Source: Nostoc sp. 'Lobaria pulmonaria (5183) cyanobiont'
GTDB taxonomy: Bacteria > Cyanobacteriota > Cyanobacteriia > Cyanobacteriales > Nostocaceae
DNA: 64,000 nucleotides
Assembly (NCBI RefSeq): GCF_002949795.1
Contig: NZ_CP026692.1
Location: 803,501-867,500 of the forward strand
Reading direction: 5' to 3'
Under the pieces are notes generated by a model. It saw nothing but the letters and a program-made list of their open reading frames with translations, was not told the DNA's origin and did no database searches. Position 1 is the stretch's first letter. Every line of letters begins with the position of its first letter. This document shows, one piece after another, positions 45,597-48,683 of the stretch. Made by a program: the position numbers and the translations under genes.

Positions 45597-46304
45597 TTAT
45601 TGATAAATTGAACCATCAGGCATAATTGCCCCTGCTAAGTTAGTCCCAACTAGTTTAACTAGAAGACGCTCACCAGAGCGAATCCGCGCTCCCGTCAAGT
45701 CGGCTCCTCGCAAGTCGGCACCACTGAGATCCGCTCCAATCAAATTAGCAGCGCGTAAATTCGCTTCCCTGAGATCGGCTAAAAGTAGATTTGCTCGAAA
45801 TAGATTTGCTTCAGATAAATTTGCACCTCTGAGGTTGACTTTGTGCATAAAAGTATCGCTAAGATTAGCACCGCTCAAATTGGCATAACTCAGATTTCTG
45901 CCAGATAAGTCTTTATTGCTCAAATTTGCCCGACTGTAGTCTTTGCCGCTTAAATCTGAGTTTGGTTTTGGTGGTCGCTGGGTTGTTTGAGATGGTTTTT
46001 CCTCTTGAGGTTGCGGTGAGTGATGTGTGGTTTGATGTGTGGTTTGATGTGTGGTTTGATGTGTGGTTTGATGTGTGGTTTGATGTGTGGTTTGATGTTT
46101 GGTTTTTAGAGAGCGCAACTTTTCACGAGCTTCATTTATAGCTTTCAGCTTGTCTTGCGCTTTCTGCTGTAAACGGAGATTGTCTTTGGGAATGCGATCG
46201 GGATGCCAAACAAAGACTAAATCTTTGTAAGCCTGGTTCACTTCTTCAAGTGTTGCTCCAGGCTCTAATTCCAAAACTCTATAGTACCGCTCCAGATCGC
46301 TCAT
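45597..46304 (-). CDS. J-domain protein with tandem HQTT linker and pentapeptide repeats
   Basis: 235 aa. J domain about 5-65 with HPD at 34-36 (FVWHPDRIPKDN), which stimulates Hsp70 ATPase in the family. A linker of about seven tandem (H)QTT units follows from about residue 70, then a Pro/Gln-rich spacer, then a pentapeptide-repeat beta-helix from about 113 to 225 (A-(N/D)-L-x-x repeats: ANLSGANLSD, ADLREANLRAANLIGADLSG). The fusion would tether a pentapeptide surface to Hsp70; client unknown. The linker is encoded by a 12-bp tandem repeat and is probably length-variable. Confidence 0.88.
   Translation of the reverse strand: MSDLERYYRVLELEPGATLEEVNQAYKDLVFVWHPDRIPKDNLRLQQKAQDKLKAINEAREKLRSLKTKHQTTHQTTHQTTHQTTHQTTHQTTHHSPQPQEEKPSQTTQRPPKPNSDLSGKDYSRANLSNKDLSGRNLSYANLSGANLSDTFMHKVNLRGANLSEANLFRANLLLADLREANLRAANLIGADLSGADLRGADLTGARIRSGERLLVKLVGTNLAGAIMPDGSIYQ
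46021..46098. repeat. 12-bp coding microsatellite (GATGTGTGGTTT)
   Basis: Six or more perfect tandem copies of GATGTGTGGTTT on the plus strand, with degenerate units at the ends. They encode HQTT repeats on the minus strand. The unit length keeps the frame on gain or loss of copies. Confidence 0.92.
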
Positions 46305-47376: not shown

Positions 47377-47405
47377 TTGACAAAGCCCACTCTTCCTGCT
47401 AATGT
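47377..47405 (+). promoter_or_regulatory. Proposed promoter of the DAHP synthase leader transcript
   Basis: A perfect -35 hexamer TTGACA (47377-47382) is followed after 17 bp by TAATGT (47400-47405), a weak -10 match. It would start the transcript about 40-45 bp before leader ORF 1. This is inference from sequence only. Confidence 0.45.
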
Positions 47406-47453
47406 TAATTTATATAAATATATTTCTTAGATTTTTCAGCAAAAACCCTGCAA

Positions 47454-47510
47454 ATGCTTAACACAAATTCCTACTTTTATTTTTGGTTTAGGGTGGTTCA
47501 CCGGGAGTGA
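47454..47510 (+). CDS. Leader peptide 1 of the DAHP synthase attenuator
   Basis: 18 codons: MLNTNSYFYFWFRVVHRE then TGA. Six consecutive aromatic codons (Tyr-Phe-Tyr-Phe-Trp-Phe, 47472-47489) lie just before a stem whose 5' arm is 47495-47505. This is the hallmark of a ribosome-stalling leader peptide that senses charged tRNAs for aromatic amino acids. No strong Shine-Dalgarno is visible, which weakens the case compared with leader 2. The peptide itself would have no function beyond regulation. Confidence 0.72.
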   Translation: MLNTNSYFYFWFRVVHRE

Positions 47511-47575
47511 ATTAAGTTTCCTAATGGAAACCACCCGGTGAACCGCAGAGCAAACTCTGCGGTTTTTGTTTTTTT
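47495..47575 (+). terminator. Attenuator 1: upstream stem plus intrinsic terminator
   Basis: Segment 1, GGTTCACCGGG (47495-47505), pairs perfectly with segment 2, CCCGGTGAACC (47534-47544); a small GTTTCC/GGAAAC hairpin sits between. A 9-10-bp terminator stem ACCGCAGAG/CTCTGCGGT (47542-47550 with 47555-47563, loop CAAA) is followed by TTTTGTTTTTTT. Segment 2 shares its last three bases with the terminator, so pairing 1:2 should weaken terminator closure at the base. The competition is modest and needs testing. Confidence 0.8.
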
Positions 47576-47593
47576 AAGGAGAATTTCATTGTC

Positions 47594-47656
47594 ATGACTT
47601 ATTTCAGTAGCTGGTTTTATGGCTTTTACTTTTGGCCCAGAATAAATTCCGGGTAA
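47594..47656 (+). CDS. Leader peptide 2 of the DAHP synthase attenuator
   Basis: 20 codons starting MTYFSSWFYGFYFW and ending PRINSG then TAA. Nine of twenty residues are Tyr, Phe or Trp (two Trp, four Phe, three Tyr). AAGGAG lies 12 bases before the ATG. The stop codon touches segment 1 (TTCCGGG, 47647-47653) of the antiterminator. A ribosome finishing translation would cover that segment, while one stalled at the aromatic codons would leave it free. Regulatory peptide; no function of its own is expected. Confidence 0.8.
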   Translation: MTYFSSWFYGFYFWPRINSG

Positions 47657-47716
47657 ATAGCGTCATGCTAATGAATCAGAACGCGCCCGGAACTCTTAAA
47701 GGTTTCGGGCTTTTTT
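47647..47716 (+). promoter_or_regulatory. Attenuator 2: mutually exclusive antiterminator and terminator
   Basis: Segment 1 TTCCGGG (47647-47653) pairs perfectly with CCCGGAA (47686-47692). The same bases form the 5' arm of the terminator GCCCGGAACT (47685-47694) with AGGTTTCGGGC (47700-47710), a 10-bp stem with two G-U pairs, loop CTTAAA region, followed by six T residues (47711-47716). The two structures cannot coexist. This is the textbook logic of ribosome-mediated attenuation, placed about 100 bp before the DAHP synthase start codon. Confidence 0.85.
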
Positions 47717-47813: not shown

Positions 47814-48683
47814 ATGATTAATGCCAAACTTGCTGCACAATCCCATCTAAACCACCAGACAATCGTTAAAATCTCGGAAGAAGTCGCTTTCGGCGGTGAA
47901 GAACTGGTAATTATCGGCGGCCCCTGCACTGTTGAAAGCTTAGAACAAATGGAGATAGTCGCCCAAAAGTTATCTACTGCATCAGTACAAGGGTTGCGTG
48001 GCGGTGTCTACAAACCCCGCACATCTCCTTACGCTTTCCAGGGTATGGGAGAGTCAGGGTTAGAGATTTTAGCCAGGGTGCGATCGCATTACAATATGCC
48101 AGTTGTCACGGAGGTGATGTCAATTTCCCAAATTGAAGTAGTCGCCGCTCACGCTGATATGCTTCAAGTTGGTAGCCGCAATATGCAAAACTTTGATTTG
48201 CTCAAAGCTTTGGGACAAGCTGGTAAACCAATACTGCTCAAACGTGGTTTAGCAGCGACTATTGAAGAATTTGTCATGGCTGCTGAATATATCCTTAGCC
48301 ACGGGAATCCTGATGTGGTGTTGTGCGAAAGAGGTATTCGCAGTTTCGATGATTATACCCGTAACGTCCTAGATTTAGGGGCAGTGGCAGCACTCAAGCA
48401 AATAACTCACTTGCCTGTAATTGTAGATCCTTCTCATGCCGTCGGTAAACGGGAGTTGGTAGCACCTGTGGCTAGGGCTGCGATCGCTTGCGGTGCAGAT
48501 GGATTAATTATTGAATGTCACCCAGAACCAGAAAAATCTGTTTCTGATGCCCGTCAAGCACTTTCTTTAGAAGATATGGTGCATTTAGTTAATAGTTTAA
48601 AGCCTGTAGCCACAGCCGTTGGGCGTATTATATCAGATGTCGGGGCGGGTTTAGAACCTGCCCCAATTTTTTGGGCTGCTTAA
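47814..48683 (+). CDS. aroF: 3-deoxy-7-phosphoheptulonate (DAHP) synthase, type I beta
   Basis: 289 aa from the ATG at 47814, with GGAG nine bases upstream; an in-frame ATG at 47772 is within the CCCAATG repeat and is rejected. It condenses phosphoenolpyruvate and erythrose 4-phosphate, the first step of the shikimate pathway to Phe, Tyr and Trp. Motifs: IIGGPCTVES, RGGVYKPRTSPYAFQG, MLQVGSRNMQNFDLL, PILLKRGLAATIEE, VLCERGIRSFD, VIVDPSHAVGKR and IIECHPEPEKSVSDA. No fused chorismate mutase or N-terminal ferredoxin-like extension, so feedback by the usual domains is absent. Expression is probably controlled by the tandem attenuators upstream. Confidence 0.95.
   Translation: MINAKLAAQSHLNHQTIVKISEEVAFGGEELVIIGGPCTVESLEQMEIVAQKLSTASVQGLRGGVYKPRTSPYAFQGMGESGLEILARVRSHYNMPVVTEVMSISQIEVVAAHADMLQVGSRNMQNFDLLKALGQAGKPILLKRGLAATIEEFVMAAEYILSHGNPDVVLCERGIRSFDDYTRNVLDLGAVAALKQITHLPVIVDPSHAVGKRELVAPVARAAIACGADGLIIECHPEPEKSVSDARQALSLEDMVHLVNSLKPVATAVGRIISDVGAGLEPAPIFWAA

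Follow-up and report, generated by a model that had tools for sequence, protein, structure and literature searches.

Two differently built candidate attenuators in series before a short DAHP synthase gene of Nostoc and other Cyanobacteriia

A short DAHP synthase gene and its leader

DAHP synthase is the first step of aromatic biosynthesis, and in enzymes of type I-beta feedback inhibition is carried by a ferredoxin-like domain. The window, meaning the whole stretch of 64,000 nucleotides analyzed here, belongs to a genome of 7.3 Mb that encodes three DAHP synthases. The shortest of these (47814-48683; 289 aa) encodes a type I-beta enzyme without the ferredoxin-like regulatory domain (NCBIfam NF006421, TIGR01361; Pfam DAHP_synth_1), and its closest named relatives are found in Nostoc. 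According to Pfam, the ferredoxin-like domain (PF18152) is absent from this enzyme and present in both paralogs of the same genome (L002, L003); no aromatic leader of a similar kind was seen upstream of these two paralogs. Because the enzyme behind the leader described here lacks PF18152 and the paralogs have it, RNA control may replace, or compensate for, the missing feedback domain. Elsewhere in the window, a reverse-strand ORF (45597-46304) combines a J-domain-like N-terminal start with a TTHQ repeat tract and pentapeptide-like repeats.

All elements of the leader lie on the forward strand, in the order promoter-like site, leader ORF 1, terminator 1, leader ORF 2, terminator 2, about 100 nt and the gene. 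The probable promoter (47377-47405) consists of TTGACA (47377-47382), a 17-nt spacer and a TG-extended -10 element, TAATGT (47400-47405), with a predicted transcription start near 47412; in the relatives inspected, TTGAC/TGnTAnnnT recurs with about the same spacing to leader 1. Leader peptide 1 (47454-47510), MLNTNSYFYFWFRVVHRE, is conserved in Nostocaceae and in distant cyanobacteria, and no clear Shine-Dalgarno sequence or ribosome-binding site was found for it. Leader peptide 2 (47594-47656), MTYFSSWFYGFYFWPRINSG, is also conserved and follows a probable ribosome-binding site, AAGGAG (47576-47581). Tyr, Phe and Trp codons abound in both leaders. An exact run of codons for YFYFW is found a single time in the window, where chance would give 0.26 even if one mismatch were tolerated. 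Short ORFs with aromatic codons are placed before a gene of the pathway, with intrinsic terminators between leader ORF and gene.

Anatomy of attenuator 1

The 11-bp stem, the GTTTCC/GGAAAC loop hairpin and the two terminators named in the original prediction are all present where it had placed them. Segment 1 of attenuator 1, GUGGUUCACCGGG (47493-47505), is contained in the final sense codons of the first leader and, as pairing counts and covariation indicate, pairs with a 3' arm at 47534-47546, the last 4-6 nt of which form part of the terminator base. The core of this antiterminator is the perfect 11-bp stem 47495-47505 : 47534-47544. Terminator 1 (47541-47575) pairs 47541-47550 with 47555-47564 and continues in a U-run to 47575; nine of its ten pairs are invariant in 57 sequences, and it reaches a z of about -4.85 against shuffles. 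A three-base overlap between stem and terminator had been predicted, which is too low, as the 11-bp stem shares AACC (47541-47544), or 4 nt, with the 10-bp terminator arm, and two further pairs here (U47494.G47545 and G47493-C47546) lengthen it to 13 bp, so that six of the ten arm bases are taken. Among the 45 distinct sequences of the Nostocaceae set, 44 and 45 retain these additional pairs, the variable one being U.G in 28 and C-G in 16; among the 53 distant sequences of the reduced set, about half do. As a class-wide trait the 13-bp extension was ruled out by an A.G mismatch in 25 of those 53. Since the extra pairs are near-universal in Nostocaceae and shared by about half of the distant sequences, the overlap amounts to at least 4 nt throughout the class and to 6 nt in most Nostocaceae.

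The inner mini-hairpin (47516-47531), GTTTCC (47516-47521) with GGAAAC (47526-47531), is a conserved element with sequence turnover: pair counts give 98.5% of cells as paired in attenuator 1, the mean z is -2.4 for Nostocaceae against -1.3 for the distant loci, and the hairpin is retained where the sequences are unrelated. A possible local protector (47497-47511) is formed by UUCAC (47497-47501) and GUGAA (47507-47511), which includes the stop codon UGA and keeps a fixed spacing; the stem is weak and shows little covariation, and its P is 0.92-1.0 with the RNA out to 47520. UGA is the stop codon in about 92% of leader 1 sequences vs 20% of those of leader 2. RNAalifold and the partition function also gave an alternative partner for the GGUGGUU of segment 1, AACCACC (47529-47535), compatible with terminator 1; inspection by eye showed it in Nostocaceae and in a good many of the distant loci, with others lacking it, and such decoy pairing is not taken to be a universal third state. 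The region 47490-47566 as a whole folds at -37.5 kcal/mol vs -19.5 +/- 3.2 in shuffles (z -5.6).

Anatomy of attenuator 2

Segment 1 of attenuator 2 (47646-47653) is supported by class-wide covariation; in the window TTCCGGG from 47647 does the pairing, and GTTCCGGG takes its place in many relatives. Antiterminator 2 joins TTCCGGG (47647-47653) to CCCGGAA (47686-47692), the latter doubling as the 5' arm of terminator 2 (47685-47716), in which 47685-47693 pairs with 47702-47710 ahead of a U-run and G-C pairs are exchanged for A-U and for G-U. The antiterminator captures 7 of the 9 terminator arm bases, so the predicted overlap of antiterminator and terminator stands. The description of a clean three-segment switch does not, given a probable protector hairpin at 47635-47654 and a weak GCGT/ACGC hairpin inside the antiterminator loop (47660-47684, from pair counts). 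The protector, GCCC-A-GAA / UUC-C-GGGU, was obtained with RNAalifold, folding and shuffles; it spans the last Trp/Pro/Arg codons and segment 1, adds about -7 kcal/mol and is moderately supported against shuffles (mean z -1.65 in Nostocaceae, -1.32 in distant loci). As it holds segment 1, attenuator 2 resembles a four-segment attenuator of the trp type. The fold of 47630-47712 has a z of -3.2 vs shuffles. A GTCATGC-like motif recurs a few bases past the leader 2 stop (47660-47669 in the window, with distant copies); the GTCRTGC-like pattern was matched in 40 of 92 distant loci and is possibly an RNA polymerase pause site.

Conservation across the class

From Nostocaceae and near relatives, 110 loci with the short DAHP synthase were gathered, 94 of them distinct and with enough upstream sequence, and both attenuator modules were found in 94/94; one more locus, L105, has both further upstream. 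Covariance models of attenuators 1 and 2 (R1 and R2) were then used to search other genomes and matched elsewhere in the class, in further families and orders, before the same gene and with one match each per matching genome, which indicates that the pair is specific to the short DAHP synthase gene. In a protein search, this form of the enzyme was present in roughly a third of 291 genomes of the class. Tallies over 87 upstream regions from other families, combining model matches with manual reading of leader lists, gave R1 matches in 85 (E up to 0.0015), attenuator 2 in 83 (leader plus terminator, or R2) and both in 81, so that the predicted series of two differently built attenuators is supported class-wide. 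Throughout Cyanobacteriia, the part of the terminator taken up by the antiterminator is limited to the base in attenuator 1 and makes up most of the arm in attenuator 2; this difference in construction, being kept across the class, is no accident of one genome. Two loci (L241 and L251) have attenuator 2 only, and four loci of one cyanobacterial family (L252-L255) have attenuator 1 with no recognizable attenuator 2.

L252-L255 are natural single-gate versions. In L124 (genome G028), attenuator 1 is joined directly to internal sequence of the DAHP synthase gene, and the 3' arm of terminator 1, attenuator 2 and the gene start appear to be deleted. Extra sequence in L103 and L077 widens the gap separating the two attenuators or the one separating attenuator 2 from the gene, with both modules kept.

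It could be proposed that attenuator 1 is mainly constitutive or decaying and that regulation is left to attenuator 2, as its small overlap with the terminator and its preference for the antiterminator fold without a ribosome (below) might suggest. However, conservation is stronger in attenuator 1 than in attenuator 2 (mean column identity 88% vs 73%), and attenuator 1 is the one that L252-L255 keep, which makes this proposal improbable.

Constraint at the RNA level

Pairing between the arms was compared with pairing between arms swapped among loci. Cognate duplexes were the more stable both in attenuator 1 (-20.78 vs -16.67 kcal/mol) and in attenuator 2 (-17.64 vs -15.13 kcal/mol), and 0 of 2000 permutations were as good in either case, in sets from which sequences more than 85% alike had been removed and in which kinship is not fully corrected for. 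Single positions use three Watson-Crick pair types across the class: one position of antiterminator 1 is U-A in 14 sequences, G-C in 13 and A-U in 8, and one of antiterminator 2 is U-A in 25 and C-G in 22. The arms vary freely across the class and hardly at all within Nostocaceae, so pair counts in this family say little, with the exception of terminator 2, where 11 cells are changed on both sides and 0 of 500 shuffles scored as high. In L136, leader 1 has an earlier stop codon and segment 1 is nevertheless retained, which argues that the constraint acts on RNA.

These data bear on whether the peptides themselves matter. The peptide ends, VHR and WPR..SG, are strongly conserved, as would be expected if they caused a TnaC-like arrest of the nascent chain in place of stalling at codons of uncharged tRNAs. 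Yet the constraint is at the level of nucleotides, with the GTT CAC of segment 1 invariant in Nostocaceae, third bases included, and Val/Ala exchanged as GTG/GCG; F and Y interchange at the aromatic positions; and the RNA covariation and the segment 1 of L136 also speak against arrest, which is quite unlikely. A ligand- or tRNA-binding RNA, such as a riboswitch or T-box, might likewise be considered from the high conservation of the RNA and from AGGGUGG (47490-47496), which resembles the start of the T-box sequence. AGGGUGG, however, is not conserved in relatives, the conserved ORFs account for the constraint, and Rfam gave no family at the gathering threshold and none meaningful at E up to 1 among T-boxes, riboswitches and leaders. 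A T-box or riboswitch identity was rejected on the Rfam result and the non-conserved AGGGUGG, and a binding RNA of either kind is hardly credible here.

Ribosome position and predicted switching

For a switch operated by ribosomes, the RNA was folded at successive lengths with a ribosome at different codons, as equilibrium folding of truncated RNA. With a ribosome stalled early in the aromatic run and the RNA extending to 47562, antiterminator 1 at the terminator base had a P of 0.92-0.96 and the terminator base 0.04; with the ribosome at the stop codon and the same RNA, these values became 0 and 0.96. Means taken over 131 sequences were in agreement. Masking the first four bases of segment 1 was enough to restore the terminator (mean P 0.97-0.98) while the antiterminator core was kept (P 0.94-0.97), in 131/131 sequences, because the small overlap puts the block in the 5' end of segment 1, which a ribosome covers first. 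The suggestion that attenuator 1 works by weakening the terminator base is thereby supported in silico. Attenuator 2 has the opposite polarity, the partner of its terminator base being the 3' end of segment 1. In both attenuators masking of segment 1 altered the termination fold, as had been anticipated; antiterminator excludes terminator (at its base only in attenuator 1), and the ribosome's position switches the fold in silico.

Without a ribosome, attenuator 1 favors the antiterminator (mean P of the terminator base 0.24-0.28) and may be partly constitutive, as had been suggested; attenuator 2 of the window is open in only 0.2-0.4 of the ensemble. The two may therefore be set oppositely in the ribosome-free state, attenuator 1 being open, although this contrast is tentative since the average of attenuator 2 over loci, folded with only 45 nt of upstream sequence, gave a higher open fraction. 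Once the full terminators are exposed, the equilibrium favors terminator 1 in a number of states (P about 0.8) and terminator 2 in almost all, which means that antitermination would have to be kinetic.

Signals read by the leaders

The spacing between the aromatic codons and segment 1 is fixed. Leader 1 has them 11-23 nt before segment 1, with frequencies of 94-100% among Nostocaceae and 89-98% among the distant loci; at 8 nt the codon is aromatic in about 78%, and nearer codons almost never are. The aromatic run of leader 2 lies 13-22 nt before its segment 1 in 98-100% of Nostocaceae, with a second run at 28-34 nt. It had been suggested that attenuator 1 responds to a different signal, which is not supported, as Tyr, Phe and Trp codons are conserved in both leaders at these distances; a difference by codon content was rejected.

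A subtler version is that attenuator 1 reads Tyr and Phe only and attenuator 2 also Trp, because a ribosome at the Trp codon of leader 1 would mask the segment 1 bases that block the terminator. Leader 1 has its Trp codon 11 nt ahead of segment 1 and leader 2 has it 13 nt ahead, and the edge of the ribosome footprint has been placed 12-15 nt from the P site (PMC3641672). The outcome hinges on that edge: at 12 nt past the first base of the A-site codon, a Trp stall restores terminator 1 (P 0.98), but at 9 nt it leaves antiterminator 1 intact (P 0.96). Against different signals, Trp is kept in 93/94 Nostocaceae and 80/98 distant sequences while the codon at 8 nt varies, and this conservation suggests that the Trp codon of leader 1 is read by the ribosome. 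A Trp-blind attenuator 1 was set aside, as it rests on a footprint uncertainty of 2-3 nt and Trp conservation counts against it; a difference in signal is accordingly a doubtful explanation.

Proposed mechanism and relation to known systems

Anatomy, conservation, covariation and thermodynamic switching together make it probable (roughly 0.87) that the region consists of tandem ribosome-mediated attenuators controlling the DAHP synthase. The equilibrium preference for the full terminators, the want of a clear ribosome-binding site for leader 1 and the four loci with attenuator 1 alone weigh against it. Both leaders would be translated in the cell. With charged Tyr-, Phe- and Trp-tRNA plentiful, ribosomes would reach the leader stops and cover segment 1, and the terminators would form and end transcription. 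When one of the charged tRNAs is scarce, a ribosome would stall in the aromatic run, leaving segment 1 free to pair with the downstream arm. In attenuator 2, this pairing would capture nearly all of the terminator arm. The longer helix of attenuator 1, which encloses the conserved mini-hairpin, would take only 4-6 bases of the terminator base; the hairpin at the tip could still form, and closure beside the U-run would be prevented. The block in attenuator 1 would be kinetic, as the full-length terminator is near or above the antiterminator in stability. Two gates in series may give a steeper or multi-input response.

The mode of action would be the one familiar from trp, phe and his attenuation. 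The trpL and pheL leaders of E. coli, where each operon has a single attenuator, are alike in having a leader with the regulated codons and a logic of protector (putative here), antiterminator and terminator; attenuator 2 is the closer match, and antiterminator 1 differs in touching only the terminator base. The nearest functional precedent is aroR-aroF of Corynebacterium glutamicum, where, in the accounts consulted, a Phe-Tyr-Phe leader precedes a DAHP synthase gene under ribosome-mediated attenuation (Neshat et al. 2014, via PMC11802643, PMC4046766). An aromatic leader and a DAHP synthase are common to both; one leader is described in those accounts of C. glutamicum, whereas the cyanobacteria have two in series, with Trp codons too. 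Tandem attenuators with two short leader ORFs, each influencing an RNA switch, are known from mgtCBR of Salmonella (PMC3641672). The likeness lies in two short ORFs within one leader, each tied to a switch; the Salmonella leader responds to ATP and proline cues (PMC3641672), whereas the two cyanobacterial ORFs share codons for one set of three amino acids. No report of leader-peptide attenuation in cyanobacteria, or of the tandem pair, was found in the literature searched, with subscription journals mostly outside reach; the principle and a single DAHP-synthase attenuator in Corynebacterium are known, and the differently built cyanobacterial pair appears to be new.

A more specific joint reading can be offered tentatively, and is somewhat less probable than its denial. 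Attenuator 1 would be a distinct design in which a long antiterminator, with its inner hairpin, clamps the terminator base and leaves the rest of the terminator unreplaced; by default it would stay open when nothing is translated, and it would shut as a ribosome advances by no more than one codon. Joined to a default-closed attenuator of the trp type, it would form a two-gate stand-in for the missing allosteric domain, kept across Cyanobacteriia. If the tandem attenuators act as proposed, they would be a class-wide cyanobacterial regulatory RNA with no Rfam entry, and transcription and translation in cyanobacteria would be coupled tightly enough for attenuation at the entry of the shikimate pathway. 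Two conserved, unlike switches on one transcript would also offer a natural comparison of attenuator designs.
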